Below, in pieces: positions 2,971-14,750 of a DNA stretch of 33,993 nt. This stretch comes from Clostridia bacterium (GTDB taxonomy: Bacteria > Bacillota > Clostridia > Oscillospirales > Acutalibacteraceae). The stretch lies in contig JAGALQ010000004.1 in NCBI GenBank assembly GCA_017625095.1, forward strand, positions 1 to 33,993, written 5' to 3'. Position 1 is the stretch's first letter; every line of letters starts with the position of its first letter. The notes beneath the pieces are model-generated. The model saw only the letters and a program-made list of their open reading frames with translations. It had not been told where the DNA came from and made no database searches. Made by a program: the position numbers and the translations under genes.

Positions 2971-3873
2971 ATGGAAGGCAATGTTGTATATAAATATCTG
3001 CTGGGCATTGACGGCGGCGGAACAAAAACCGAGTTTTTACTTACAGATTTAAACGGAAAAGAAATCAGAAGACTGATTCTCGGAGCATCGAATCCCGTCA
3101 GCACAGGCATTGAAAACACTTACAGCGTGCTTAATGACGGTATCAAAGAAATATGCAAAGGATTCAATTTTTCGGAAATATCCGCTTATGCAGGCATTGC
3201 AGGAGCTAAAAGCTCTGATAATAAGCATTTTATCAATACTTTTTTATCGAAGTTTGGCTTTGCCTCTTACAGCTGCTCAAGTGACGTTGACCTCGCGCTT
3301 GAGGTGGCATTGAAAGGCGAAAACGGAGTTGCCGTTATTATGGGAACGGGAATTGTTGCTTTTGCCCGTTCAGGGGAAACGCTTCACCGCACAGGCGGGC
3401 GCGGTTATATGATTGACAAGGGCGGCAGCGGTTTCCATTTCGGCTCCGATGCTTTCAACTGTGCGTTTGAATTTATCGAAGGCAGAGGCGGAAGCGAAAC
3501 GATCCTGAAGCTTGTTGAAAAAAGATTCGGCAAAAGCCTTGAATCTTCAGTTGCTGAAATATATGACGGCGGTGCATCTTTTGTTGCATCCTTTGCATCT
3601 GTTGTTTTTGAAGCCTTTATGCTTGGTGATTCGTCAGCTTGCGAAATCATTGACCGCAATGCTTATGAGGCAGCAAAAATTATCAACGGTGCACGTAAAT
3701 CCTTAGGAAATAACGAAAACAGAATTGTTATTTGCGGAGGACTTTGCAAGCAAAAAGAAATATTATATCCGTTCCTTGAGAAATATATTGATGGCGATTT
3801 TTTACTTGAATTTCTTGATGAGCCTATAGTCAACGGTGCAATTTCACTTGCAGGGAGAATAAACAAATGTTAA
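2971..3873 (+). CDS. murK: BadF/BadG-family N-acetylmuramate/N-acetylglucosamine kinase
   Basis: 300 residues, the usual length for the BadF/BadG/BcrA/BcrD ATPase-fold sugar kinases (PF01869). Visible motifs are the phosphate-1 loop GIDGGGTKTEF (about 12-22), ASNP (39-42, typical of GlcNAc kinases), the second phosphate loop MGTGIVAFARSG, the segment GRGYMIDKGGSGFHFG, and the adenosine loop VICGGL near the C-terminus. The enzyme should phosphorylate the amino sugar at C6 in the cytosol. The stop overlaps the murQ start by 7 bp, so the two are translationally coupled. This pairing is known from the Clostridium MurK/MurQ route and favours MurNAc as a substrate, with GlcNAc also likely. The start ATG follows a weak GAGG site. 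Kinase identity is firm; the exact sugar is inferred from context. Confidence 0.85.
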   Translation: MEGNVVYKYLLGIDGGGTKTEFLLTDLNGKEIRRLILGASNPVSTGIENTYSVLNDGIKEICKGFNFSEISAYAGIAGAKSSDNKHFINTFLSKFGFASYSCSSDVDLALEVALKGENGVAVIMGTGIVAFARSGETLHRTGGRGYMIDKGGSGFHFGSDAFNCAFEFIEGRGGSETILKLVEKRFGKSLESSVAEIYDGGASFVASFASVVFEAFMLGDSSACEIIDRNAYEAAKIINGARKSLGNNENRIVICGGLCKQKEILYPFLEKYIDGDFLLEFLDEPIVNGAISLAGRINKC

Positions 3874-4664
3874 AAACCGAAATGAGAAATCCGAATACAT
3901 ATGATATTGACAAAATGTCAACGTATGAAATGCTGAAAATCATTAACGATGAAAATGCAAAGGTGACTGTTGCGGTTGAAGCTGCTTTGCCGCAGATTGA
4001 AGCTGCTTGCGATGCTGTTGCAGATGCAATAAAATCGGGCGGCAGGATTTTTTATATCGGCAGCGGAACGTCGGGCAGACTTGCCGTTTGCGATGCCGCT
4101 GAATGTCCGCCCACATTCGGTGTGTCGTATGACCTTTTCAACGGAATTATTGCAGGCGGCGAAAAATGTATGTTCAAGGCTGCGGAAAACGCTGAAGATA
4201 ATCCCGAGGCAGGTATCGAAGACTTGAAAAGCCGAGACTTCTGCAACAAAGATATATTAATCGGAATTTCCGCTTCAGGGTCAGCAGCTTATGTTATATC
4301 GGCAGTAAAATTTGCCAAAAGCATCGGTGCAAAGGCTTTTTCAATCACCAATAATCCCGATACCGAACTTGGCAAGGCGGCAGATATTGATATCTGCGCT
4401 GACACAGGTGCGGAGGTTATTACAGGCTCAACCCGAATGAAGGCAGGAACGGCACAGAAAATAATCCTCAATATGATTTCGACCGCATCAATGGTCAAAT
4501 GCGGCTGTGTCTATGAAAATATGATGATAAACCTGAAACCGACGAATAAAAAACTGCGCAGAAGGATGATAGGGATCGTTACCGAAATCCTTGGTTGCAC
4601 AGACGAAAAAGCAGAAGAGCTTCTTGAAGAAAACGGCTGGAATATCCGCTCTGCAGTTGAATAA
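3867..4664 (+). CDS. murQ: N-acetylmuramic acid 6-phosphate etherase
   Basis: 265 residues of the SIS-domain MurQ family. It cleaves the lactyl ether of MurNAc-6-P to give GlcNAc-6-P and D-lactate in peptidoglycan recycling. Family landmarks are RNPNTYDIDKMSTYEML at the N-terminus, the SIS sugar-phosphate loop YIGSGTSGRLAVCDAAECPP (Glu79 matching catalytic Glu83 of E. coli MurQ), AAENAED (Glu107 matching Glu114), the second loop GISASGSA, and GSTRMKAGTAQK. The C-terminal helical region starts normally (NLKPTNKKL, then the UBA-like EELLEENGWNIRSAVE) but stops about 30 residues earlier than the usual roughly 300-residue protein. All catalytic regions are present, so activity is expected. It overlaps the kinase gene by 7 bp and ends in a terminator. 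Confidence 0.95.
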   Translation: MLKTEMRNPNTYDIDKMSTYEMLKIINDENAKVTVAVEAALPQIEAACDAVADAIKSGGRIFYIGSGTSGRLAVCDAAECPPTFGVSYDLFNGIIAGGEKCMFKAAENAEDNPEAGIEDLKSRDFCNKDILIGISASGSAAYVISAVKFAKSIGAKAFSITNNPDTELGKAADIDICADTGAEVITGSTRMKAGTAQKIILNMISTASMVKCGCVYENMMINLKPTNKKLRRRMIGIVTEILGCTDEKAEELLEENGWNIRSAVE

Positions 4665-5174: not shown

Positions 5175-5209
5175 ATCCCCGTAAAAAACAATTCGTTCTT
5201 TACGGGGAT
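5175..5209 (-). terminator. Intrinsic terminator after the GNAT gene
   Basis: A perfect 11-bp stem ATCCCCGTAAA (5175-5185) / TTTACGGGGAT (5199-5209). On the minus strand it is followed by TTTGTTTTGTTTG and lies 5 bp beyond the stop codon. Confidence 0.75.
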
Positions 5210-5214
5210 ATAAT

Positions 5215-5769
5215 TTATAACTTTATTCCGTAAACGGCGCAGTTTTTCATTTCTGCCAGCAGGGTGAAGCCGTATTTGTCGTAAAAGCCTCTGCCCTTTT
5301 CATTTTTTATCCATGTTGTAAGCATAATACCCTTTATACCCTTTGCTTTGAGGTGAGAAAGAAGGGCATCAGTCATTTTGTGTCCCAGTCCCATTCGCTG
5401 ATACTCTGGCAGAACGTCAATGTGTAGATGTGCAGGATATTCTTCCTTATATTTTTCGTGGGGAATAACCGATCTTAACGCAGATTTTCTACGCTTGAAT
5501 TCCCACTTTTTTATTCTCATGTAATATTTGTCAAGAAACACGGGATAGAACTTGTCAAAATCCTGAGTACTGATGATATACCCGATCGCCTTATCTTTTT
5601 CATCGACTGCAACAAAGCAGTTTTCGGGTTCGTTTTCAATATAATAATCGCAGTAAACAGCGAGTGCAAAATTAATTCCTCTTTTTGAGCTTTTGCATGG
5701 CCCTTCGCTGTTCAGGCATACAAAGCGCACATTTTCTTTGTCTTTTTCTTTATACGGTCTGATAGTCAT
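5215..5769 (-). CDS. GNAT acetyltransferase resembling the C-terminal domain of animal O-GlcNAcase
   Basis: 184 residues from ATG 5769, chosen because GGAAGTG lies 6 bp upstream and MTIRPYKEKD is the usual GNAT opening; the frame extends 16 codons further, but those overlap the likely promoter. Domain order is N-terminal IRPYKEKDKENVRFVC, a strand NCFVAVDEKDKAIGYI (about 73-88), a hydrophilic insertion, then HLHIDVLPEYQRMGLGHKM with the acetyl-CoA pyrophosphate loop Q-R-M-G-L-G, and a C-terminal GRGFYDKYGFTLL. The layout and several segments (IRPY start, CF-V-DE-GY-T-D strand, final FY-K-GF) match my recollection of the acetyltransferase-like domain of animal O-GlcNAcase. Unlike that pseudo-domain it keeps a good acetyl-CoA loop. 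It is divergent from the GH84 gene, 122 bp away. Substrate unknown. Confidence 0.85.
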   Translation of the reverse strand: MTIRPYKEKDKENVRFVCLNSEGPCKSSKRGINFALAVYCDYYIENEPENCFVAVDEKDKAIGYIISTQDFDKFYPVFLDKYYMRIKKWEFKRRKSALRSVIPHEKYKEEYPAHLHIDVLPEYQRMGLGHKMTDALLSHLKAKGIKGIMLTTWIKNEKGRGFYDKYGFTLLAEMKNCAVYGIKL

Positions 5770-5788
5770 TTTTATCACTTCCGATACG

Positions 5789-5817
5789 AGTCTATCATTA
5801 AAACTCACAAAAATCAA
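5789..5817 (-). promoter_or_regulatory. Possible promoter for the GNAT gene
   Basis: On the minus strand, -35 TTGATT (5817-5812), 17 bp, -10 TAGACT (5794-5789). The -10 is only a 4/6 match, so this is tentative. Confidence 0.35.
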
Positions 5818-5842
5818 GGAAGAATATTTGATGTTTTAATAA

Positions 5843-5871
5843 TTGTAATAGCGGTAGATTTATTGTATTAT
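5843..5871 (+). promoter_or_regulatory. Sigma-A promoter for the GH84 gene
   Basis: -35 TTGTAA (5843-5848), 17-bp spacer, -10 TATTAT (5866-5871), 20 bp before the start codon. A strong ribosome binding site AAGGAGG (5878-5884) follows. Confidence 0.5.
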
Positions 5872-5891
5872 AAGCTTAAGGAGGGATTTAT

Positions 5892-7454
5892 ATGAACAGC
5901 AATTCAAATCCTAAGGCTGTTTTTGAAAAGCTTTTCGGTAACACCGACTATGATATAAAAATTGTTTACGAAAACTCAAAGCATATATGTTACTGCGAAA
6001 AAACTCACAGGGTTACCGATGAAAAATATATTCTTTCCGTTTCAGGTAAAGATGTTAAAATATGCTGTTCATCCGATAAAGGAGCGTTTTATTCACTCTG
6101 CGACCTTGCAAGACGTATTGATGAAGGCACGGTTTGCGACGGTGAATATATCTGCTCACCTTCATTTGCCGTCAGAGGTTATATCGAAGGCTTTTACGGC
6201 ACACCGTGGAGCTTTGAGCAGCGCAAATCCGTTATGCAGCTTATGGCAAAAAACAGAATGAACACGGTCTATTACGCACCGAAGGATGACCTTTATCACC
6301 GTGAAAAGTGGAGAGAGAAATATCCTGAAAATGAGCTCGCAAAGCTCAAAGAGCTTGTTGACCGGGCTGCGGAATACTATATGGATTTCTTTTGGTGTAT
6401 TGCTCCCGGACTTTCAATGAAATATTCTGATGATGCCGAGTTTGATGCTCTCATAGAAAAAACAAAGCAGCTTTATTCAATCGGAATTCGCTGTTTCGGT
6501 CTGCTTCTTGATGATATTGATGAGGAGCTTGCTTTTGATGAGGACAAATCTGTATTCGGCGAAACAGTCAATGCACACATTGATCTGATAAACAGATATT
6601 ATTCTGTTTTAAAAGAGCTGGATTCTTCAATCCGTCTTACCGTTTGTCCCACGCTTTATCACGGCAAGGGCAATGAATATTATATCTCAAAGCTCGGCAA
6701 AAATATTTCTCCGCTCGTTTCCGTTTTCTGGACGGGCAGGGATATATGCTCCCGTGAGCTGACAAGTCCCGAAGCTGTAAGATTTATTGAGAGTACATAC
6801 CACAAGCCGCTTTACTGGGATAACTATCCCGTAAACGATTGCTCGATGTTCAACGAAATGCATATTTCACCGATTATCAACCGCGACTCCGATTTGTATA
6901 AGTATTCCGAAGGCATTATTTCAAACTGTATGGAATATGCCGAATGCTCGAAAATTCCGCTGATTACCTTTGCCGATTACCTCTGGGACAGCGAGAATTA
7001 TGATTCGCAGAAATCCTGGGAGGGTGCAATAAAGCAGGTTGTCGGAAAAGAAAATGCGGATAATTTCATTGTATTTGCAGACCATCTTTATACATCTTGC
7101 CTGAAGGATGCAAATTCCAGGCGGATGTACGAGGTGTTTGATGAAATTGAAACTGCATTCAAATCAGGTAACAGGGAAAAAGCTTTTGCTCTTGCAGAGA
7201 ATTATCTCGGCAAAATGAATGCGTGCAGAGAATATCTCAAGCGGGATTTGCCGATTTGCCGTGAACTTACCAAATGGTCGGAAAAATTCTTTGTGATGTG
7301 CGATATTCTGAATAATATTTTCAGCTTTATTATGAATAAGGACGAGAGAATGCTTACAGAAATTGATGCATTAATCATTAAATACGAGGCTATGCCTGCA
7401 CGGCTTTCAAATGATATAAATATCCGTGACGAAATTAAAAACCTGAAAAAATAA
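5892..7454 (+). CDS. Cytosolic GH84 beta-N-acetylglucosaminidase (O-GlcNAcase/NagJ family)
   Basis: 520 residues. An N-terminal alpha/beta domain (about 1-90) precedes the GH84 TIM barrel. Signature sequences are RGYIEGFYGTPWSFEQR (95-111), YYAPKDDLYHREKWREKYP (127-145), and the catalytic Asp pair in LLLDDIDEE (Asp207-Asp208), which supports substrate-assisted cleavage through the GlcNAc N-acetyl group as known for this family. The later FADYLWDSENYDSQKSW matches the family's substrate-binding region. A helical segment fills the C-terminus (about 400-520). There is no signal peptide, cohesin, FIVAR or CBM module, unlike secreted clostridial NagJ, so the enzyme should act inside the cell. Neighbouring MurK/MurQ and NamZ suggest imported GlcNAc-MurNAc fragments as substrate; true O-GlcNAc glycoproteins or other beta-hexosaminides remain possible. 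The ceramidase-fold genes follow 20 bp downstream. Confidence 0.93.
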   Translation: MNSNSNPKAVFEKLFGNTDYDIKIVYENSKHICYCEKTHRVTDEKYILSVSGKDVKICCSSDKGAFYSLCDLARRIDEGTVCDGEYICSPSFAVRGYIEGFYGTPWSFEQRKSVMQLMAKNRMNTVYYAPKDDLYHREKWREKYPENELAKLKELVDRAAEYYMDFFWCIAPGLSMKYSDDAEFDALIEKTKQLYSIGIRCFGLLLDDIDEELAFDEDKSVFGETVNAHIDLINRYYSVLKELDSSIRLTVCPTLYHGKGNEYYISKLGKNISPLVSVFWTGRDICSRELTSPEAVRFIESTYHKPLYWDNYPVNDCSMFNEMHISPIINRDSDLYKYSEGIISNCMEYAECSKIPLITFADYLWDSENYDSQKSWEGAIKQVVGKENADNFIVFADHLYTSCLKDANSRRMYEVFDEIETAFKSGNREKAFALAENYLGKMNACREYLKRDLPICRELTKWSEKFFVMCDILNNIFSFIMNKDERMLTEIDALIIKYEAMPARLSNDINIRDEIKNLKK

Positions 7455-7474: not shown

Positions 7475-8944
7475 ATGGCAGTAGTAATCAGATGGGTATC
7501 AGCAATTATGGCGGTGCTTCTCGGTCTTCCGACTCTTTTGGTTGCAGTTTTTCAGAGTGTTACCAAGATAGGCTATGATGACAGACCGGTTGCTGAAATT
7601 GCGGAAAACTTCCTTGAAGGAAGCAAAGAGTTTATTGATGAAGCCGAATCGGAATACTGGTCGGCAGGCTTTGCACGCAGAGTTCTTACTCCCGATGACG
7701 TTGACAAAACGCGTTATTTCCTTGGCGGCTTCCTCAAGTTCCCTGCACAGGAAGCAACGGGTGTTATTGACGATCTGTGCGTAAGAGCAGTTGTACTTGA
7801 CGATAATTCGGGCAGAGGCGCTGCGGCTTTTGCATGGATTGATGCTGTTGGCTTTATGAATGCCGATATCAAGGATATCCGCGAAAAGCTCAGCGATATT
7901 ACAGGTGACGGCAAGCTTATCAGCATTGACGTCGGTTCAACTCACGCGCACAGCGCAATAGACACTCAGGGTCTGTGGGGCAATATTCCCAACAGCGGCA
8001 GAAACGAAAAATATATAGAAGCCGTGGTTCAGAAAACCGCTGACGCAATCAGAGAAGCGTACAATAACCGCACAGAGGGTAATCTTTATTACGCTGCCGA
8101 GTCTTATCCCGATATGTTTTGGGATGGCAGAGCTCCCCGTGTGATCGACGATAAAATTCATCTGTTCCATTTTGTCCCCAATACAGTAGGCAAAAAAGAG
8201 ATTTACATAGCCAATTTCGGCGCTCATCCCATTCATCTTGAATGGAGCAATTCAGAGCTTTCCGCTGATTTCCCGTATTACATTGAAAAAGAAGTTACCA
8301 CTGAAAAGAATGCGGACTTCATATTCATTCAGGGCGCAATAGGCGGCGCTATTCACACTGATCTTGGTCCGCAGAACGGCATCCCCGAAAATCTTACCGC
8401 TTTTGAAAAAATGCAGGAATACAGCAATATTGTTGCAGATATTCTCTACGGTCTTGCCGAAAAAGCCGAGGTTGTTGAACCTATCCTCAATGTTAAACAC
8501 GCTCAGGTTGATTTTGAGGTTAATAACTTTATTTTCCTTCTTGTCGCAAGCAGCGATATGTGCAACGTTCATCCTTTCAAGGAGAACGGTAAGGTTTATA
8601 TGTCAAGCGAAATAGGCTATGTTGAAATAGGTAAGAATATAAAGATTGTTGAAGCACCCGGTGAGGTTATTCCCGAAATTGTTTACGGCGGATTTTTGTC
8701 TGCTGAGGATTCCTTCACAGGCACCGAATATCCCTATAAGGGCATTGCAACTCATTTCGGTGAGGAGGATGAAGTTCTTGTTTTCGGCCTTTGCAACGAT
8801 GCAGTAGGTTATATCGTACCCGATAACGATTACAGCTCATCAGGCGCTGAAGGTCACTATGAAGAAACAGTTTCAACAGGTTCAAAAAGTGCATCTGCAT
8901 ATTCAAAGGCATTCTTTGATCTATTAAATGAATGGAGTAAATAA
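7475..8944 (+). CDS. Membrane-anchored ceramidase-fold protein, copy 1
   Basis: 489 residues with an AAAGGAGA site 9 bp upstream. Residues 4-28 form a hydrophobic N-terminal anchor without a clear cleavage site. From about residue 62 the protein follows the N-terminal domain of neutral/alkaline non-lysosomal ceramidases (PF04734): FARRVLTPDD, DDLCVRAVVLDDNSGRGA, then STHAHSAIDTQGLWG with the zinc ligands His157 and His159, and NFGAHPIHLEW with His251. The segment that normally carries the catalytic serine (GDVSPN in true ceramidases) reads FIQGAIGGAIHTD here, so the nucleophile motif is missing. The C-terminal immunoglobulin-like domain of ceramidases is also not evident. A metal-dependent amidase or hydrolase acting outside the membrane is likely; the substrate is unknown. 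It probably shares a transcript with GH84 and the following paralogue. Confidence 0.82.
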   Translation: MAVVIRWVSAIMAVLLGLPTLLVAVFQSVTKIGYDDRPVAEIAENFLEGSKEFIDEAESEYWSAGFARRVLTPDDVDKTRYFLGGFLKFPAQEATGVIDDLCVRAVVLDDNSGRGAAAFAWIDAVGFMNADIKDIREKLSDITGDGKLISIDVGSTHAHSAIDTQGLWGNIPNSGRNEKYIEAVVQKTADAIREAYNNRTEGNLYYAAESYPDMFWDGRAPRVIDDKIHLFHFVPNTVGKKEIYIANFGAHPIHLEWSNSELSADFPYYIEKEVTTEKNADFIFIQGAIGGAIHTDLGPQNGIPENLTAFEKMQEYSNIVADILYGLAEKAEVVEPILNVKHAQVDFEVNNFIFLLVASSDMCNVHPFKENGKVYMSSEIGYVEIGKNIKIVEAPGEVIPEIVYGGFLSAEDSFTGTEYPYKGIATHFGEEDEVLVFGLCNDAVGYIVPDNDYSSSGAEGHYEETVSTGSKSASAYSKAFFDLLNEWSK

Positions 8945-8946
8945 AA

Positions 8947-10446
8947 ATGGAATTTCTGCGCTTTCTCAAGCTTCCCGAATTGGTAAGAGGAATAATATCA
9001 GGCTTGCTTTCTCTGGTAATTCTTTTTGTTCCCCATTCAACATACACAACCGTTGGAGAAACCTCAAAATATATGCTGACGGGTGACGAAACCTTTTCAT
9101 ATAACGGTGAAAAGTGGACCGTTGGCTTTGCAAAAGAAGTTCTCACTCCCGATGATATTACTGAAGAATCTTATTATATCGCAGGCTACAACACAAATAA
9201 TCCGGCAAAATCAGTGCTTGACGATATGTATGCCAAAGCGGTTTATCTTGATGATAACAGCGGCAGAGGCGGCGTTGTCATTTGCGCTGTTGACTGTGTC
9301 GGAATCAGCCGCAAAGATATAAACGATATCAGAAAAATCGTTATCGAAAGCGGTAAGATTCCCGATCTCAAATCAATCAATATCTGTGCAACGCACACCC
9401 ATTCTGCCATAGATACACAAGGACTTTGGGGCAAGAATTTCTTCTCGGACGGTAAAAACGAGGAGTTTATGAACCGCCTCAAAGAACTGACCGCAAAAGC
9501 AATTATTGATGCATACAGCGCAAGAAAAGACGGCAGTCTTTATTTAGGTACGGCGGAAACTGAAGGACTTCTGACCGATACAAGAACTCCGATTGACTAC
9601 GATGCAACAATAACAAGAATCCGTTTTGATCCTGCGGACGGCAGCGACGATACCTATATTGTGAATATGGCATGCCACGCCGAATGCTTGGGTGCGAGGA
9701 CAACCGTTGTAAGTGCTGATTTTCCTGCTTATATGGAAAAGGAAATGATTGATCAGACAGGCAGCGCAAACGTTGTTTTTATAAACGGAGCTATCGGAGG
9801 GCTTATCACCTGCGAAAAGCTTGATGACGTTCTGCGTAACTTTGAGCTCGGCCTTGAATACGTCAGGGAATTCGGCAAAGACGTGGGCGAAGCTGTTATG
9901 AGCATAAACAACGAAACTGCTTTGCAGCCTGCAATCAATGTCAAAACTCAAGCTTTGGAAATAAAATGCGATAATACCGCACTTTTGCTTGTGCGTTTTC
10001 TCGGCGTTCTCAATAATGACGTTGCCAAAGATAATGACGTTGCCAAAGATAATGACAATAACATCTCTATCATTACGGAAGTTTCATATATGGAGCTCGG
10101 CAACATGCAGATAGGTGTTTATATGATTCCGGGTGAGCTTTCTCCCGAGCTTGAAAGCGGCAATTTCCTTCCTGCAGAAGAAGCTGCAAACGGCACAAAA
10201 GCCGATTATAAATCTCTTTCGGAAATGTCACGATGCGAGCATAATTTTGTTATCGGTCTTTGCAACGATGAAATCGGATATATCATTCCCGAAAATGATT
10301 TCCTTCTTCACGAATGGTTGCCGTACTTCAACAATACCGATGATGAAAACGGCAGAAGGCACTACGAAGAAACAAATTCGCTCGGTCCGAATGCGGCAGG
10401 AGCAATTCTTGACGCTATGGACGAGCTGATAAAATCGGTAGAATAA
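8947..10446 (+). CDS. Membrane-anchored ceramidase-fold protein, copy 2
   Basis: 499 residues, beginning 2 bp after the stop of copy 1, with GGAG in the end of that gene as ribosome binding site. It is a diverged tandem duplicate of copy 1: hydrophobic anchor at 12-29, WTVGFAKEVLTPDD, DDMYAKAVYLDDNSGRGG, ATHTHSAIDTQGLWG (zinc ligands His150 and His152) and NMACHAECLG. The position of the ceramidase serine reads FINGAIGGLITCE, again without GDxSPN, so the loss predates the duplication or is a family trait. Residues about 357-370 contain a short duplicated NDVAKD insertion that copy 1 lacks. It is the last gene of the GH84 transcript and is followed by a terminator. Substrate unknown. Confidence 0.82.
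   Translation: MEFLRFLKLPELVRGIISGLLSLVILFVPHSTYTTVGETSKYMLTGDETFSYNGEKWTVGFAKEVLTPDDITEESYYIAGYNTNNPAKSVLDDMYAKAVYLDDNSGRGGVVICAVDCVGISRKDINDIRKIVIESGKIPDLKSINICATHTHSAIDTQGLWGKNFFSDGKNEEFMNRLKELTAKAIIDAYSARKDGSLYLGTAETEGLLTDTRTPIDYDATITRIRFDPADGSDDTYIVNMACHAECLGARTTVVSADFPAYMEKEMIDQTGSANVVFINGAIGGLITCEKLDDVLRNFELGLEYVREFGKDVGEAVMSINNETALQPAINVKTQALEIKCDNTALLLVRFLGVLNNDVAKDNDVAKDNDNNISIITEVSYMELGNMQIGVYMIPGELSPELESGNFLPAEEAANGTKADYKSLSEMSRCEHNFVIGLCNDEIGYIIPENDFLLHEWLPYFNNTDDENGRRHYEETNSLGPNAAGAILDAMDELIKSVE
10015..10056 (+). repeat. In-frame 18-bp tandem repeat inside ceramidase-fold copy 2
   Basis: The unit AATGACGTTGCCAAAGAT (10015-10032) is repeated exactly at 10033-10050 and begins a third time (AATGAC, 10051-10056). 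It encodes NDVAKD twice, then ND. Perfect identity suggests recent slippage. The insertion lies in a likely surface loop. Confidence 0.9.
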
Positions 10447-10497: not shown

Positions 10498-11619
10498 TTA
10501 ATACAGATACCATTTTTTTGAGAACTTTTGCCATTCGTTAACTTTTCGTTGTTCCTCTGCAATAAAAATCTCGGGGTCAAAGTCGGGTTGCAGAATTCTA
10601 TCTGTTCCGAGAAGGCTTGTAATAAACGGATCGAATTCAAATTCGGAATGAGTTTTTCTGATTGCGTCAAGCAGTCTGATTCCGACGGCGAAAGGCGAAA
10701 AACTTTCTCTGTCGGTAATATGAAGCTGGATGCCGTGGCAAAAGGTGTCCTTATAGTCTGAAAACGTGGGTGTAAATGAACATTCGCGAAGAACAACTCC
10801 GTCTTGCTGACCGACTTTTTCAATAACCGCTTTACTGTTAAGCCACGGTGCACCGATCATTTCAAACGGTTTTGTTGTGCCTCTGCCTTCGGAAAGATTT
10901 GTTCCCTCAAAAATGCAGGTGCCGATATATACAAAAGCCGTATCAACGGTTGGAATATTAGGCGATGGCTGAATAAAAACAAGGTCGGTGTCATCGTAAT
11001 ACATCTCCCTTCTCCAGCCTTCCAGGGGAATGACGGTCAGGTCGCAGCCGATGTTTTCGGTTTCATTCATCATAAGGGCAAATTCGCCTATGGTAAGACC
11101 GCAACGCGTCGGAGTGGGAAATCTGCCGACAAACGATGAAAAATCTCGGTCAAGTACAGTTCCCTCCGCCTTAATTCCGCCCAAAGGATTCGGACGATCA
11201 AGAACAACAAACTTAACACCGTTTTCGGCACAAATCTTCATTGCGTCCGTCATAGTGTAGGCATAGGTGTAAAACCTTGCACCTACGTCCTGGATATCAA
11301 AAATGACGGTATCAAGAGAGGCGATTGCTTTTTCACTTTCCGATATATCATCACCGAACAGACTGTAAACGGGCAGTCCCGTCTTTTTATCGGTGTATGA
11401 AACTATGTTTTCTCCTGCCTGTATATCGCCTCTGACACCGTGTTCGGGTCCGAAAAGAGCAACAAGGTTGCACCTTTCTTTGAGTATATCAACGGTAGAA
11501 GAAAGGTTACGCAGAACACCTGTGTGGTTTGTAATAAGTCCGCATTTGCCCTGAAAATCAAATCCGTTTTTTGCGACCATATCAACGCCGCACAGAACTT
11601 TTTGTTTTGCTGTTTTCAT
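10498..11619 (-). CDS. namZ: NamZ-type exo-beta-N-acetylmuramidase (DUF1343, GH171)
   Basis: 373 residues, full family length. Family blocks are GLITNHTGV (near 28), ALFGPEHGVRGDIQAGE, FDIQDVGARFYTYAYTM, VVLDRPNPLGG, QPSPNIPT and FEGTNLSEGRGTTKPFE. Characterised NamZ of Bacillus subtilis (YbbC) splits terminal MurNAc from peptidoglycan chains. That enzyme is exported, whereas this one begins MKTAKQKVLCGVDMV with no signal peptide, so it probably acts on imported fragments. The start overlaps the stop of the upstream beta-lactamase-fold gene as ATGA (11616-11619), which implies coupled translation. The pair mirrors the ybbE-ybbC part of the Bacillus MurNAc operon, and murK-murQ lies about 6 kb away to take the released MurNAc. 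Confidence 0.92.
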   Translation of the reverse strand: MKTAKQKVLCGVDMVAKNGFDFQGKCGLITNHTGVLRNLSSTVDILKERCNLVALFGPEHGVRGDIQAGENIVSYTDKKTGLPVYSLFGDDISESEKAIASLDTVIFDIQDVGARFYTYAYTMTDAMKICAENGVKFVVLDRPNPLGGIKAEGTVLDRDFSSFVGRFPTPTRCGLTIGEFALMMNETENIGCDLTVIPLEGWRREMYYDDTDLVFIQPSPNIPTVDTAFVYIGTCIFEGTNLSEGRGTTKPFEMIGAPWLNSKAVIEKVGQQDGVVLRECSFTPTFSDYKDTFCHGIQLHITDRESFSPFAVGIRLLDAIRKTHSEFEFDPFITSLLGTDRILQPDFDPEIFIAEEQRKVNEWQKFSKKWYLY

Positions 11620-12686
11620 ATTTTATCGTCCTTATGTAAATTATTGTATTCCGTAATCATCGTATCATAAAACTTTTTACGGATCAAAAAATATTCGCTT
11701 CTGTTATCTCTTCCGTAGTGAACAGCATTTGTCAGCAGAACACCCCAGAGTCCCGTTTCATAATCAACGTAAAGACTTGTTCCGGTAAACCCTGTGTGAC
11801 CGTAGCTTCCCGATGACATCAGCCTGCCGCCCGGAAATACCTGATTTCCCTTAAGCTGAAAACCCAGCCCTCTTGACTCTGATTTATCGGAGGTGTAGTT
11901 TTTTACGGCTAAGTCAAATATTTCTTGTGAAAGAAAAATATCGCCGTTTGGCACAATACCTTTTGCGGAACACATTTTTGCAAAAGAGATCATATCATCA
12001 AGCGTTGCAAACACCCCGGCATTCCCCGAAACACCGCCGAGAAAATATGCGTTTTCATCGTGGACATGACCCGTTGCCCATTCTCCCGAATGAGAATAAA
12101 GCTCGGTTGCGGCAACAACAGCTTGTGTCAGCGGATTATAGCAGGCGGTTTTCATACCGAGAGGTTCAAAAACATATTTTTGTGCAAGCTTATCAAGAGA
12201 TTCACCGCCGACGGTTTCAAGAATACGTCCGAGCACAATATATCCCATACACGAATAGCAGACTTCTTTTCCTGTTTCATAGCATCTGTCTGAATCGAGA
12301 ACAGTGCGAATCACATCGCTGTTTTTGTGTGTCATATCGAACAATGGGATTCCCGACGGCATACCCGATGTGTGAGTCATAAGATGACGGATTTCACAAT
12401 CACCGTAATTGCCCGAATAATCAAGGAATTTGCTTATTTTGTCATTCAACGAAAGCTTACCGCTGTCAATAAACTTTAACGCAATCATAGATGTTGCAAC
12501 AAGCTTTGACAAAGATGCAATATCAAAAAGAGTTTCCTCTGTTAAATCTGATACAGTCGGCTTAATCTGACGGTGTCCGAAAAACTCACGCACAAAAACT
12601 ATATGCCCGAGACCGACGGCGACCGCGGCGCAGGGAAAAGCGTTACCGACTCCTGATTTTATAAGCTTTAGTGTTTCTGCAAACAT
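11616..12686 (-). CDS. Beta-lactamase-fold serine hydrolase (YbbE-like), putative muropeptide amidase
   Basis: 356 residues of the class C beta-lactamase/penicillin-binding family (PF00144). The catalytic SxxK is in IASLSKLVATS, the YxN motif appears as YSCMGYIVLG (Asn replaced by Cys, with the usual GYxxLG following), and the third motif is HTGFTGTSL near the C-terminus. There is no signal peptide. Its Bacillus counterpart YbbE (named AmiE) sits beside the NamZ gene in the MurNAc operon and is proposed to cut peptide from MurNAc. The ATGA overlap with namZ and the shared promoter support a joint role. An esterase or D-amino-acid peptidase activity is also possible for this family. The start follows GGAAGGAA. 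Confidence 0.88.
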   Translation of the reverse strand: MFAETLKLIKSGVGNAFPCAAVAVGLGHIVFVREFFGHRQIKPTVSDLTEETLFDIASLSKLVATSMIALKFIDSGKLSLNDKISKFLDYSGNYGDCEIRHLMTHTSGMPSGIPLFDMTHKNSDVIRTVLDSDRCYETGKEVCYSCMGYIVLGRILETVGGESLDKLAQKYVFEPLGMKTACYNPLTQAVVAATELYSHSGEWATGHVHDENAYFLGGVSGNAGVFATLDDMISFAKMCSAKGIVPNGDIFLSQEIFDLAVKNYTSDKSESRGLGFQLKGNQVFPGGRLMSSGSYGHTGFTGTSLYVDYETGLWGVLLTNAVHYGRDNRSEYFLIRKKFYDTMITEYNNLHKDDKI

Positions 12687-12923: not shown

Positions 12924-13538
12924 ATGGAAAAACACGATACACTGCAAATACTTTTTATAAGGCACGCCCAAACCGATTACAGCGATATAGGTGACCGTGA
13001 CAACTGTGACGGTGAGCTTACACCTGACGGTGAAAAGCAATGTGTTGATTTGGGCGAAAGGCTTAAAGACCTGCAGATTGACGCTTATATTACAAGCTCT
13101 CTGCTGCGCAGTTTTAAAACCGCTGTCGGCGTTTGCAATGCAAAAGCAGATAAACCTTTGCTTGAAATTTGTCCCGAGCTTATCGAGTGCGGCTGTACAC
13201 CCGGCTATTTCGGCTGCAGCGAAGAGTATCTTCAGAAATATTATAAAAACACAAAAATGTGTGAAAAGCTTTTCGGTACCGAAAAATATGAATTCGGCTG
13301 CGAAGCGTTTGAGGATAACGTTATACGTGCTCAAAAAGTGATTTCTTACATTAAAAACAGATTTACATACGGTGAGCGTGTTGCGGTTTTCAGCCACCAC
13401 GGGTTCCTTGAATATCTTATTCCCACTGCTTTGGGAGTTAAGCCGCATATATTCAGATTCGCTCTTGATAATGTTTCTGTTACGGTTGTTGATTTCTGCC
13501 GTGACGGTAATGCAGTGCTTCGCTGTGTCAATAAATAA
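12924..13538 (+). CDS. Histidine phosphatase family protein
   Basis: 204 residues of the phosphoglycerate-mutase-like (PF00300) superfamily. The phosphohistidine motif is LFIRHAQTDYSD (residues about 11-22, with RHA for the usual RHG), followed by LTPDGEKQCVDLGERL, the arginine-bearing TSSLLRSFKTA, and the second catalytic histidine in FSHHGFLEYL. Several Cys residues (CGCTPGYFGC) lie in the variable insertion. The enzyme should remove phosphate from a small molecule or phospho-sugar in the cytosol; the substrate cannot be read from sequence. It leads an operon with an MFS carrier and a glycosidase, so a sugar phosphate is a reasonable guess. The ribosome binding site is AGAAGGT. Confidence 0.88.
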   Translation: MEKHDTLQILFIRHAQTDYSDIGDRDNCDGELTPDGEKQCVDLGERLKDLQIDAYITSSLLRSFKTAVGVCNAKADKPLLEICPELIECGCTPGYFGCSEEYLQKYYKNTKMCEKLFGTEKYEFGCEAFEDNVIRAQKVISYIKNRFTYGERVAVFSHHGFLEYLIPTALGVKPHIFRFALDNVSVTVVDFCRDGNAVLRCVNK

Positions 13539-13571
13539 ATTAATTGGGTAATCATAAGATTCGGAGGATTT

Positions 13572-14750
13572 ATGGCTTTCTTATTGGTTGTTATATATAT
13601 TGCATTTATAGGTCTCGGTGTTCCCGATTCGCTCATCGGTTCTGCCTGGCCTGCCATTCATTCTGAAATGAGTATTCCGGTCGAGGCGGTCAGCATTCTC
13701 ACATTTATTATTTCGGGCTGTACCGTTTTATCAAGTATGTTCAGCTCAGGAATTCTCAATAAGCTCGGAACAGCAAGAGTTACTGCTTTCAGTACGGCAA
13801 TGACAGCTTTGGCGCTGCTGGGCTTCTCTTTCGCACCGTCTTTTGGGTTTATGATTCCGCTTGCCGTTATTCTCGGACTCGGTGCAGGTGCAATTGACTC
13901 GGGACTCAACAATTATGTTGCTCTGCATTTTAAAGCAAGCCATATGAATTTTCTGCACTGTTTTTACGGTGTCGGAGTTTCACTCAGTCCTTATCTTATG
14001 TCGCAGGCATTGAGCAATGCAGGCTGGCGAGGCGGTTACCGCTATGCTTTTTATGTTCAGGCGGCAATCACGCTGCTGCTTATAATATCGGTTCCTATGT
14101 GGAAGAAATCATCATCCGCTGAAGAATCGGAAGAAGAAAACAGCAAAAACCTTACTCTTTGGCAAATGGCAAAAATGCCTGAAGTCCGTCAGGTATGGGT
14201 TATTATGCTTGCAACGAACGCAATTGAATATGCCTGCGGAGTATGGGGCAGCACATATCTCGTAACAGAAAAAGGCTTTGAGGCAAAGTACGGTGCACTT
14301 GCTCTGACCGTATATTACGTAGGAATGTCAATTGGCCGTTTCGTTTCGGGCTTGCTTTCCAATAAAATCAGCACCTGGAAACGCATAAGTATCGGCACAA
14401 TAATTCTCGCCCCTGCAATCGCGGTTATGCTTCTTCCTCTGCACGGTGCGGTTACCGTTGTCGGTTTATTCCTTGTAGGTCTTGGCAACGGCTCAATCTA
14501 CCCGAATATGATTCACCTCACACCTCACAATTTCGGCAAAGAGGTTTCCCAGTCGGTTATGGGCTCGCAGATAGCGTTTGCATATATCGGTGTTATGCTT
14601 GCGCCGCCTGCAGTCAGCCTGATAAGCGGACTGTTCGGAATTAAGGTATATCCCGTTCTGCTTGCGGTGTTATACGTGATTATGGTTTTTACTATCAGGT
14701 GCTTTGTCAGCAGACTAAAAAAGCAGAATAAATACAACGCAAAAGTCTGA
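13572..14750 (+). CDS. MFS transporter
   Basis: 392 residues with about 12 hydrophobic segments in two halves separated by a charged loop (KKSSSAEESEEENSKN, about residue 176-191). The first segment carries LGVPDSLIGSAWPAI, and LGLGAGAIDSGLNNYVA plus FLHCFYGVGVSLSP resemble the FucP-type sugar:proton symporter branch of the family. The start follows CGGAGG. It lies 33 bp after the phosphatase and 19 bp before the GH106-like glycosidase, so it probably imports a sugar related to that enzyme's product. The exact substrate cannot be stated. Confidence 0.9.
   Translation: MAFLLVVIYIAFIGLGVPDSLIGSAWPAIHSEMSIPVEAVSILTFIISGCTVLSSMFSSGILNKLGTARVTAFSTAMTALALLGFSFAPSFGFMIPLAVILGLGAGAIDSGLNNYVALHFKASHMNFLHCFYGVGVSLSPYLMSQALSNAGWRGGYRYAFYVQAAITLLLIISVPMWKKSSSAEESEEENSKNLTLWQMAKMPEVRQVWVIMLATNAIEYACGVWGSTYLVTEKGFEAKYGALALTVYYVGMSIGRFVSGLLSNKISTWKRISIGTIILAPAIAVMLLPLHGAVTVVGLFLVGLGNGSIYPNMIHLTPHNFGKEVSQSVMGSQIAFAYIGVMLAPPAVSLISGLFGIKVYPVLLAVLYVIMVFTIRCFVSRLKKQNKYNAKV

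Follow-up and report, generated by a model that had tools for sequence, protein, structure and literature searches.

Is the GNAT gene beside a GH84 gene at this clostridial locus related to the acetyltransferase part of animal O-GlcNAcase (OGA), and what would its product do next to a hexosaminidase? The window, by which we mean the whole stretch of 33,993 nucleotides analyzed, contains the two genes head to head and 122 bp apart, at the coordinates that the earlier note had claimed (Table 1), and the strings IRPY, NCFVAVDEKDKAIGY, FYDKYGF and QRMGLG to which that note had pointed are each found in the GNAT. A longer GNAT reading frame, starting from a TTG at 5817, is also possible.

Table 1. 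Features in and around the GH84-GNAT pair (window coordinates) and the evidence for each.
Feature	Position	Strand	Evidence
BadF-type sugar kinase (NagK/MurK-like)	2971..3873	+	PF01869 E 1e-22; NF046058 NagK E 4.2e-23, below cut-off
MurQ	3867..4664	+	NF003915 E 2.2e-108 and TIGR00274 E 5.2e-99, both above cut-offs
Terminator-like hairpin	5175..5209	-	directly 3' of GNAT; 16 pairs, T-rich tail; consensus match only
OGA-AT-like GNAT acetyltransferase	5215..5769	-	184 aa, ATG 5769; PF00583; full-length profile matches to SsAT, OgpAT and OGA in PDB
Acetyl-CoA P-loop QRMGLG, residues 124-129	5383..5400	-	fits Q/R-x-x-G-x-G/A
PAHLHID signature, residues 112-118	5416..5436	-	H116 aligns with OgpAT His135, D118 with Asp137
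Divergent promoter region, predicted	5770..5891	.	+ strand TTGTAA-17-TATTAT (5843-5871) facing GH84
GH84 beta-N-acetylglucosaminidase	5892..7454	+	520 aa; PF07555 E 4.6e-101; best PDB match TtOGA 5diy
Ceramidase-fold protein 1	7475..8944	+	PF04734 E 5.3e-7, below cut-off; N-terminal hydrophobic stretch
Ceramidase-fold protein 2	8947..10446	+	PF04734 E 0.0049, below cut-off; alignment A3
NamZ exo-beta-N-acetylmuramidase (GH171)	10498..11619	-	PF07075 E 1.9e-82; orthologue has NamZ_N + NamZ_C
PF00144 serine hydrolase	11616..12686	-	PF00144 E 8e-47; nearest NCBIfam model PBP4B, below cut-off

Family and key residues of the acetyltransferase

The GNAT matches PF00583 in Pfam (E 1.4e-12), and in phmmer searches the single sequence found SsAT (4bmh, E 9.4e-18) and OgpAT (3zj0, E 1.9e-9). 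A profile of 30 of its relatives (A1), searched against the PDB, matched SsAT with E 1.2e-32 over residues 2-173 of 184, OgpAT with E 2.5e-24 over 2-184, and over 2-175 the C-terminal OGA domains of Trichoplax (6r45, E 1.8e-12) and of 5m7r, which we take to be human OGA (E 7.2e-12). A second profile (A2), which includes one stray GNAT (L237), matched 5m7r with E 3.5e-20 over 2-193 of 196. Among the best 60 of 216 A1 matches, most other GNATs align only from about 104-121 to 168-183, around the acetyl-CoA motif; the exceptions among these 60 are 9fpz (39-68) and glucosamine-phosphate acetyltransferases, whose matches begin at 80 or 81. The alignment with the OGA domains spans a family-specific insertion, which as counted on the alignment would comprise about 45 residues between GYIIST and HLHID in the window protein (P0001). 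We reject the reading as a generic GNAT because in the profile searches the OGA domains come next after SsAT and OgpAT and the alignment with them is full-length; the exception is 7l1k, a generic GNAT with a partial match that ranks above all OGA rows with A1 and above the two Trichoplax rows with A2. The near full-length matches to the OGA C-terminal domain, a comparison of the kind that the earlier note had proposed as a check, thus indicate that the GNAT is, by profile similarity, a member of the OGA-AT/SsAT/OgpAT family.

The presumed base of OgpAT is His135, and the P-loop pattern and residue roles used here follow the available part of PMC3814719. P112, A113, H114 and H116 of the signature are present in 30/30 sequences of A1 and D118 in 28/30; in the P-loop, G127 and G129 are each found in 29/30, position 124 is Q or R in 24/30, and N156 corresponds to the CoA-contacting Asn of OgpAT. 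The acetyl-CoA loop, which the earlier note had described as retained, is thus intact together with the presumed catalytic His; this sets the window GNAT apart from the animal domain, and the loop of human OGA is degenerate.

OGA was once proposed to be a histone acetyltransferase, and many of the PDB matches confined to the motif region (best 60 of 216) are protein N-terminal acetyltransferases. The GNAT might therefore acetylate proteins and so control GH84, the kinase or proteins of the cell wall, a reading with which the putative peptide-binding cleft retained by eukaryotic pHAT domains is compatible (PMC12494797, in the part available). However, sugar genes recur as neighbors in distant branches of the family, and a narrow tunnel is described over the presumed active site of OgpAT (accessible text of PMC3814719); we consider this explanation quite improbable.

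Between the two genes, a minus-strand promoter-like element (TTGATTTTTGTG...GATAGACT) lies ahead of the GNAT. Promoter-like sites number 6 between 4600 and 6000, with 3.1 expected; judged by eye on the alignment, the elements are kept in several orthologues and are weaker in L091, L095, L096 and L112. Terminator-like hairpins number 2, compared with 1.4 expected from shuffles, and Rfam had no match within the window at gathering thresholds.

An amino-sugar cluster around the pair

The NAGidase domain of the GH84 enzyme covers residues 95-396, its catalytic Asp pair reads as D207-D208 in alignments, and its closest solved structure, TtOGA, matches with E 1.9e-76; inspection by eye revealed no evident signal peptide. 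Enzymes of this family use the substrate's own 2-acetamido group in neighboring-group participation, and for this reason a de-N-acetylated glucosaminide should resist GH84.

MurQ, a kinase, NamZ and a beta-N-acetylglucosaminidase (here GH84), the genes by which we recognize peptidoglycan amino-sugar salvage, occur together in the window, and by its gene content the cluster looks like one for cell-wall-sugar recycling. The PF00144 hydrolase is possibly an amidase of the salvage set, which is a guess by analogy. An importer dedicated to the cluster was not identified there. None of the 8 GH3s in the window genome (87% complete) carries the motif that we used in screening and take to mark NagZ. 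The gene company suggests that in gut Clostridia the NagZ step of cell-wall sugar salvage can be taken over by a GH84 enzyme that has no signal peptide.

We favor, with a probability of about 0.48, the reading that the GNAT is an active N-acetyltransferase of amino sugars and restores the 2-acetamido group for GH84 in peptidoglycan/GlcNAc salvage. The family, the intact cofactor and base residues and the conserved gene company are observed, and from them we infer a putative substrate, order of steps and cytosolic place; it is solely the gene company that points to GlcN or terminal GlcN as the group acetylated. The GNAT would act in the cytosol beside GH84 and put the acetyl group back on imported fragments that contain GlcN, or on free GlcN. 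Release of GlcNAc by GH84 would follow; phosphorylation of GlcNAc or MurNAc would be the task of the BadF-type kinase, and further conversion of the phosphate ester that of MurQ or, in sister loci, of an SIS protein. Equating this SIS protein with Streptomyces NagS is unsupported, since SIS proteins of low homology, one of them clostridial, lacked NagS activity according to the available portion of PMC12680351.

The similarity of GH84 to TtOGA would also fit a protein O-GlcNAc system, as proposed for Thermobaculum. However, the neighbors are MurQ, the kinase and NamZ, and the OGT model PF13844 had no match in the window genome, whose 87% completeness keeps this absence from being proof (the control search matched 2/14 genomes). 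We set this disfavored reading aside as extremely improbable.

Linkage within the genus, the clade and the phylum

The earlier note had asked whether GH84 and the GNAT are co-located across Clostridia; the co-location is conserved in one clade and, in the genomes sampled, does not extend through the phylum. In the window's genus (11 genomes including its own), all 13 GH84 genes, distributed over 7 genomes, have a family GNAT no more than 6 kb away on their contig, and the pairing is therefore not attributed to chance; across all 59 genomes the count is 13 of 18. An in-frame stop occurs in one of the 13 genus GNATs. Our 79 related loci were drawn from 576 confirmed matches, of which the best 80 were kept, are near relatives that in some cases share one genome, and have flanks of 7 kb on both sides in only 50 cases. 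They contain GH84 in 26, the kinase in 29, MurQ in 16, the SIS protein in 11 and NamZ in 9 loci, with at least one of these in 32; for GH84 about 1.3% would be expected by chance (2 genes x 16.5 kb / 2.5 Mb). In 19 loci no more than 250 bp separate GH84 from the GNAT. A weak match to the GH84 model in L153, one of the loci outside the clade described below, is in fact a GH20 hexosaminidase, about 4.6 kb from the GNAT.

Gene order varies. Whereas the window pair is divergent, L103 has GNAT and GH84 in tandem with a gap of 10 bp; L104 reads GNAT-kinase-SIS-GH84, all co-directional, L111 has the order GNAT-kinase-GH84, and in L106, L109 and L112 the kinase and SIS genes stand with the GNAT, and GH84 diverges from them. 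Every locus with GH84, kinase or MurQ (>60 bits) falls into a single clade of 51 rows (SH-aLRT 99) in a tree made by a quick method, with long branches flagged among the outgroups and a few clostridial rows.

The phylum sample of 398 genomes has GH84 in 42 and a GNAT profile match in 5, both together in the window's own genome only. This search was limited to 8 scored candidates in each genome and may miss family GNATs; two of the five matches resemble other GNATs, the one in G409 is partial with stops, and the one in G136 (L237) is without the PAHLHID signature. No family GNAT was found in the 37 GH84 neighborhoods outside the genus. Their 132 neighbors (leaving out proteins >700 aa and ORFs cut by the end of the stretch, with the L228 kinase ORF substituted by hand) include no Pfam family more than six times, and four are generic GNATs. 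A role of GH84 as phylum-wide salvage enzyme is not supported: kinase, GH3-model match and NamZ occur together only in L228 among these 37 loci, and weaker kinase matches lie near GH84 in L217 and L222. In the sampled genomes the link is thus absent outside the clade and Oceanicola. One could take the sampled Bacillota GH84s outside the clade, which are without a co-located family GNAT, to mean that the two genes are neighbors by chance and have no functional tie; however, the linkage outlasts several rearrangements within the supported clade and recurs in Oceanicola (PMC3814719, as far as its accessible text goes), and we disfavor this explanation as very improbable. The earlier note had held that a generic GNAT family as best profile match and a lack of conserved co-location with GH84 would speak against its proposal; neither was found outright.

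Several observations count against the salvage reading, among them the phylum sample with both genes in a single genome, the failure to identify a dedicated importer in the cluster, and the ceramidase-fold genes, which in the 79 loci are commoner than GH84. L105, L107, L108 and L110 lie inside the clade and have none of the GH84, kinase, MurQ, SIS, NamZ or ceramidase-fold genes. In a subclade of 13 a KdsB-like/BNR cluster accompanies the GNAT, in most cases together with ceramidase-fold genes, and GH84 is absent. At >60 bits, none of these six kinds of gene is found in the 31 of 79 loci outside the linked clade, whose 114 scanned neighbors (leaving out proteins >900 aa and cut ORFs) include 14 Gfo/Idh/MocA oxidoreductases, 6 DHDPS-family proteins and 4 inositol monophosphatases. 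This company is sugar-like, not amino-sugar, and we therefore rate slightly lower both the salvage reading and the view of the animal domain as a priming relic discussed below. Among more distant relatives, a clear amino-sugar link is missing in the neighborhoods of 3 Streptomyces, 3 of 6 Deinococcus and 1 Mesorhizobium GNATs, which likewise counts against salvage. Other distant relatives speak for it: two Agrobacterium GNATs adjoin a ROK regulator, sugar ABC genes and ROK accompany the GNAT of Rhizobium tropici and, joined by a kinase, that of Duffyella, and the Falsirhodobacter locus reads kinase-ROK-transporter-GNAT-nagB-amidohydrolase.

An alternative explanation is that the GNAT acetylates a free or phosphorylated amino sugar (GlcN or another hexosamine, giving GlcNAc for the kinase), with GH84 in the same regulon and no priming. 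The gaps of only 1-29 bp between GNAT and kinase in L104, L106, L109, L111 and L112 argue for it, as do the Falsirhodobacter and Duffyella loci, where kinase, ROK or nagB occur and GH84 is not listed in the stretch, the Gfo/Idh/MocA and DHDPS neighbors, which suggest monosaccharide-type substrates, and the weak profile similarity (A1) to the glucosamine-phosphate N-acetyltransferase 1i12 (E 3.7e-5). Taken alone, however, it leaves unexplained the GH84 genes within 250 bp in 19/79 loci and the adjoining one in Oceanicola (available part of PMC3814719). We think it unlikely, if well worth weighing.

Ceramidase-fold genes are commoner than GH84 (38 of the 79 loci, in 22 within 250 bp), also in some loci without GH84, and their family profile matches the neutral ceramidase 4wgk (E 3.1e-10) with THTHS and a second His aligned. 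The GNAT could thus serve these proteins: an exported amidase-like enzyme would strip an N-acyl group outside and the GNAT would replace it inside, on an amino sugar or a lipid. Yet PF04734 stays below its cut-off in both window proteins, the residue aligned with the ceramidase serine, S274 in the Pseudomonas enzyme, is not a serine, and in L104, L106, L109 and L111 no ceramidase-fold gene accompanies GNAT, kinase and GH84 within the stretch analyzed, a short one for L104 and L111. On these alignments it is doubtful that the two proteins are active ceramidases, a literature search on bacterial ceramidase homologues found nothing useful, and we regard their service by the GNAT as improbable.

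Comparison with known systems

The salvage cluster of Bacillus subtilis, whose order we take to be murQ-murR-murP-amiE-nagZ-namZ, has MurQ, NamZ, a PF00144-type hydrolase and a beta-N-acetylglucosaminidase in common with the window, which differs in having GH84 for NagZ, a kinase for the PTS, and in addition the GNAT and two ceramidase-fold proteins. In Clostridium acetobutylicum the gene for a glucosaminide N-acetyltransferase stands beside murK and nagZ, and the hexosaminidase is NagZ and not GH84. This acetyltransferase, also cited in PMC12680351 and PMC4974736, is said to recover peptidoglycan sugars that have no N-acetyl group, ahead of their cleavage by a beta-N-acetylglucosaminidase (PMC4680927). 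RmNag of Rhizomucor (4zm6) shares the proposed principle of a GNAT that primes GlcN substrates for a hexosaminidase, and cuts (GlcN)2 only with acetyl-CoA (PMC4680927, in the part available). However, its hexosaminidase is a GH3 with the GNAT fused to it, whereas the window has GH84 and separate genes, and 4zm6 is absent from the best 60 of 216 (A1) and the best 60 of 144 (A2) PDB rows.

An unfused, adjacent pair of GH84 and OGA-AT-like GNAT, as pointed out in the earlier note, is not new and has a precedent in Oceanicola granulosus (Rao et al. 2013, PMC3814719, available in part). OgOGA and OgpAT are likewise unfused neighbors with intact P-loop and His base, and OgpAT is only distantly similar to the window GNAT; OgpAT lies immediately downstream of OgOGA, whereas the window pair is divergent, clostridial and part of a MurQ/NamZ/kinase cluster. 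New is that the pair is linked through several gene orders in one clostridial clade, mostly with amino-sugar genes. SsAT of Streptomyces sviceus (He et al., accessible text of PMC3919268), the best solved relative, has the P-loop in common and a reported insertion of 55 residues, longer than that of the window GNAT.

The pseudo-HAT of metazoan OGA belongs, judged by the full-length profile match, to the same GNAT subfamily as the window GNAT, but is part of one fused chain, whereas the window has two genes on opposite strands. The human and other animal OGA domains tested bind no acetyl-CoA, according to the available parts of PMC3814719 and PMC12494797. To call the window pair a relative of the ancestral unfused state, as the earlier note did, goes too far: a Streptomyces homologue matches human OGA with E 5.7e-13 (window GNAT 0.24) and a Falsirhodobacter homologue matches Trichoplax OGA with E 5.5e-11 (window GNAT 0.0029), so that in these comparisons the bacterial protein nearest animal OGA is not the window GNAT. 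The gene company makes an amino-sugar activity of the intact bacterial homologues, with or without a GH84 partner, concretely and cheaply testable, and hints that the acetyltransferase part of animal OGA, now dead, may originally have acetylated sugars. It is possible, although we lean against it, that the OGA-AT family consists at its root of amino-sugar N-acetyltransferases that in some lineages restore the 2-acetamido group for GH84, that the animal pHAT is the relic of such a substrate-priming partner, and that GNAT-hexosaminidase coupling arose more than once, with GH84 at this locus, in OGA and in Oceanicola, and with GH3 in the fungal RmNag and Ngs1, the latter reportedly not a hydrolase.

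Gene pair and family of the acetyltransferase

The GNAT and GH84 genes lie head to head, 122 bp apart, as the earlier note had described, and both open reading frames and the motif strings it quoted from the GNAT protein were recovered. The spacer carries promoter-like elements pointing both ways (pattern matches only), and these elements appear, by eye in the alignment, to be kept in many orthologues; a terminator-like hairpin lies behind the GNAT gene. The hairpin and the opposed promoter-like elements suggest that the GNAT is probably transcribed alone, and GH84 together with two downstream genes.

Features of the window discussed in the text
Feature	Position	Strand	Remark
BspA-type leucine-rich-repeat protein with dockerin type I domain	1-1062
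Terminator-like hairpin, 3' of GNAT	5175-5209		pattern match only
GNAT	5215-5769	-	PF00583, 1.4e-12 (Pfam)
GH84	5892-7454	+	PF07555, 4.6e-101 (Pfam)
Ceramidase-fold proteins	7475-10446
Protein with jelly-roll domain	14770-17052		weakly similar to alpha-L-rhamnosidases

Searched as a single sequence, the window GNAT has 4bmh (9.4e-18) and 3zj0 (1.9e-9) as its best solved relatives, and matches the O-GlcNAcase (OGA) domains 6r45 (0.0029) and 5m7r, presumably human (0.24). The papers tie 4bmh to SsAT, 3zj0 to OgpAT, 6r45 to the Trichoplax OGA domain, 9qep to Trichoplax OGA, 9qen to human OGA and 5diy to the GH84 relative TtOGA. Profile A1, made from 30 relatives in Clostridia, matched 4bmh at 1.2e-32, 3zj0 at 2.5e-24, 6r45 at 1.8e-12 and 5m7r at 7.2e-12, with alignments spanning residue 2 to at least 173 of 184; among the best 60 of 216 rows, the others mostly cover only about 104-121 to 168-183, and one partial match, 7l1k (2.9e-14), outranks the OGA rows. 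With a broader profile of 20 sequences (A2), which contains one stray GNAT (L237), human OGA rows stand right behind SsAT and OgpAT (9qen 2.8e-20; 5m7r 3.5e-20, covering 2-193 of 196), and 7l1k is ahead of the Trichoplax OGA rows. These full-length matches bear out the kinship with the OGA-AT family on which the earlier note built its ancestry reading; on these scores, however, the window GNAT is not the nearest bacterial relative of animal OGA, since homologues from Streptomyces (5.7e-13 against human OGA) and Falsirhodobacter (5.5e-11 against Trichoplax OGA) score more strongly. Unlike the animal domain, the window GNAT looks catalytically intact in the alignment: the P-loop QRMGLG, H116 (equivalent to OgpAT His135), D118 and N156 are present, and P112, A113, H114 and H116 are invariant in all 30 A1 sequences.

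Linkage to GH84 in the genus and across the phylum

Ten of 59 relatives, the window genome included, carry 18 GH84 genes, and a family GNAT lies within 6 kb of 13, which are all those of the window's genus. None lies that near the other five (in G018, G023 and, three times, G048); in G018 and G023 the GNAT sits on a contig other than that of GH84, and the G018 GH84 adjoins a kinase gene. The co-location in Clostridia that the earlier note wished surveyed thus holds for all 13 GH84 genes of the genus but not for these five.

Two paralogous loci contain the pair. The window type (six genomes) has the GNAT next to GH84 and two ceramidase-fold genes, with kinase and MurQ alongside; the second (seven genomes) has it next to one or two ceramidase-fold genes, kinase, a SIS protein and GH84. 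One GNAT of the second type (L010, G010:C4:72132-72662) has an in-frame TAG, reflecting decay or assembly error. A third type, without GH84, looks like an uncharacterised acidic-sugar cluster, in which the GNAT is accompanied by a KdsB-like/BNR cluster and by ceramidase-fold genes. Here (L053, L054, L057, L059, L063, L074 and orthologues) the GNAT is grouped with a protein of about 400 aa without a Pfam match, a BNR-repeat protein, a KdsB-like cytidylyltransferase, a large product resembling a membrane protein and, at some loci, an ECF-type S component, and this group runs divergent from a ceramidase-fold pair. Ceramidase-fold proteins, mostly in tandem (also L049 7389-10657 and L053 1931-5177), match PF04734 near the cut-off; their His positions align with those of neutral ceramidases, and what we take to be the ceramidase nucleophile position aligns to a non-serine.

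In a phylum sample of 398 genomes, with at most eight GNAT candidates scored in each, GH84 occurs in 42, an A1 match in five (two of which, G409, partial with stops, and G136, without the signature, resemble other GNATs), and both in the window genome only; on the same scoring G433, which shares the taxonomic family of the window genome, carries GH84 twice without an A1 match. The family GNAT is absent from the stretches fetched around 37 further GH84 genes, and 4 of 132 scanned GH84 neighbours match generic GNAT models. A general co-location is therefore not upheld. In a distant genome (G366), GH84 has NamZ, a GH3-model match and a kinase of BadF type as neighbours in one stretch (L228), which contains no OGA-AT GNAT.

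Company of the wider GNAT family

We compared 79 loci from named genomes (the best 80 of 576 confirmed matches; partly overlapping the 59 relatives, some contigs giving two), 50 of which have 7 kb available on both sides. GH84 occurs in 26 of them and kinase in 29; 16 have MurQ, 11 SIS and 9 NamZ. At least one of these five is found in 32, and ceramidase-fold genes in 38. Gene order varies: divergent, tandem (L103), co-directional GNAT-kinase-SIS-GH84 (L104), GNAT-kinase-GH84 (L111) and convergent (L124). In an 89-row tree built by a quick method, every locus with GH84, kinase or MurQ falls inside one 51-row clade (SH-aLRT 99) that includes 48 of the 79 loci; four loci in it (L105, L107, L108, L110) have none of GH84, kinase, MurQ, SIS, NamZ or ceramidase-fold genes.

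The remaining 31 loci have no GH84, kinase, MurQ, SIS, NamZ or ceramidase-fold gene above 60 bits. A set of 114 near neighbours of these loci includes 14 Gfo/Idh/MocA oxidoreductases, 6 DHDPS-family proteins, 4 inositol monophosphatases and 4 GH43 proteins, so that the company of these branches is sugar-like, not amino-sugar; its recurrence hints at a different sugar or cyclitol substrate. Among L138-L165, examples with Gfo/Idh/MocA, inositol monophosphatase and DHDPS neighbours are L141, L143, L146, L149, L160 and L161. In L153 a GH20 hexosaminidase (13119-14702), of a family that likewise employs the 2-acetamido group, lies about 4.6 kb from the GNAT.

A tblastn search of plasmids with the window GNAT matched 42 records, 24 covering at least 80% of the query, and 18 stretches were fetched (17 for GNAT, one for GH84). 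Amino-sugar or sugar-import company is clear in Falsirhodobacter (kinase, ROK, nagB, amidohydrolase), Duffyella (sugar ABC, ROK, kinase) and R. tropici (sugar ABC, ROK). It is partial in two Agrobacterium (ROK, Gfo/Idh) and in three Deinococcus stretches: in D. radiodurans the GNAT adjoins a PIG-L deacetylase, with nagA about 3 kb further along, in D. gobiensis a ManNAc-6P epimerase and a kinase lie within 4 kb, and in Deinococcus AJ005 sugar ABC genes and a LacI regulator start 0.8 kb away; three Streptomyces, one Mesorhizobium and three other Deinococcus stretches show no clear company of either kind. The unannotated Microvirga and Nonomuraea stretches, with ORFs listed only, were left outside these classes. 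Plasmid GH84 matches are from Enterococcus in 67 of 88 records; among the matches listed, most are annotated as protein O-GlcNAcase and some as hyaluronate lyase.

A possible role and known systems

A BadF-type kinase and MurQ lie left of the pair, and two ceramidase-fold proteins, then NamZ (-) and a PF00144 serine hydrolase (-), to its right. The salvage cluster of Bacillus is murQ-amiE-nagZ-namZ; the window cluster resembles it, with GH84 occupying the place of NagZ. The window genome (87% complete) has one NamZ and no OGT, and none of its eight GH3s has the NagZ motif tested.

The GH84 nucleophile is the 2-acetamido group of the substrate, so a GlcN residue should block GH84; the window GNAT would prime the substrate by restoring this group on GlcN. 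Three polysaccharide-deacetylase-type genes in the genome are a possible source of GlcN. A precedent is fungal RmNag, which cleaves (GlcN)2 only with acetyl-CoA, the authors concluding that transferase activity is required (PMC4680927). On the GH84 dependence, this precedent and the possible GlcN source, we propose substrate priming, at slightly under even odds (about 0.48); the main rival is that the GNAT acetylates a free or phosphorylated amino sugar. In the open-licence literature on O-GlcNAcase and GH84, none of the papers listed gives the OGA-AT family a role in amino-sugar salvage, and only PMC4680927 names both O-GlcNAcase and glucosamine N-acetyltransferase.

The arrangement seen by the earlier note is confirmed and its interpretation partly supported. 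An unfused bacterial pair is already published: Rao et al. 2013 place OgpAT directly downstream of OgOGA in Oceanicola granulosus and report that OgpAT binds acetyl-CoA, whereas the human domain does not (PMC3814719); He et al. describe the solved SsAT structure with a 55-residue insertion (PMC3919268). The window arrangement is a new variant of this known pair, with a testable functional hypothesis.
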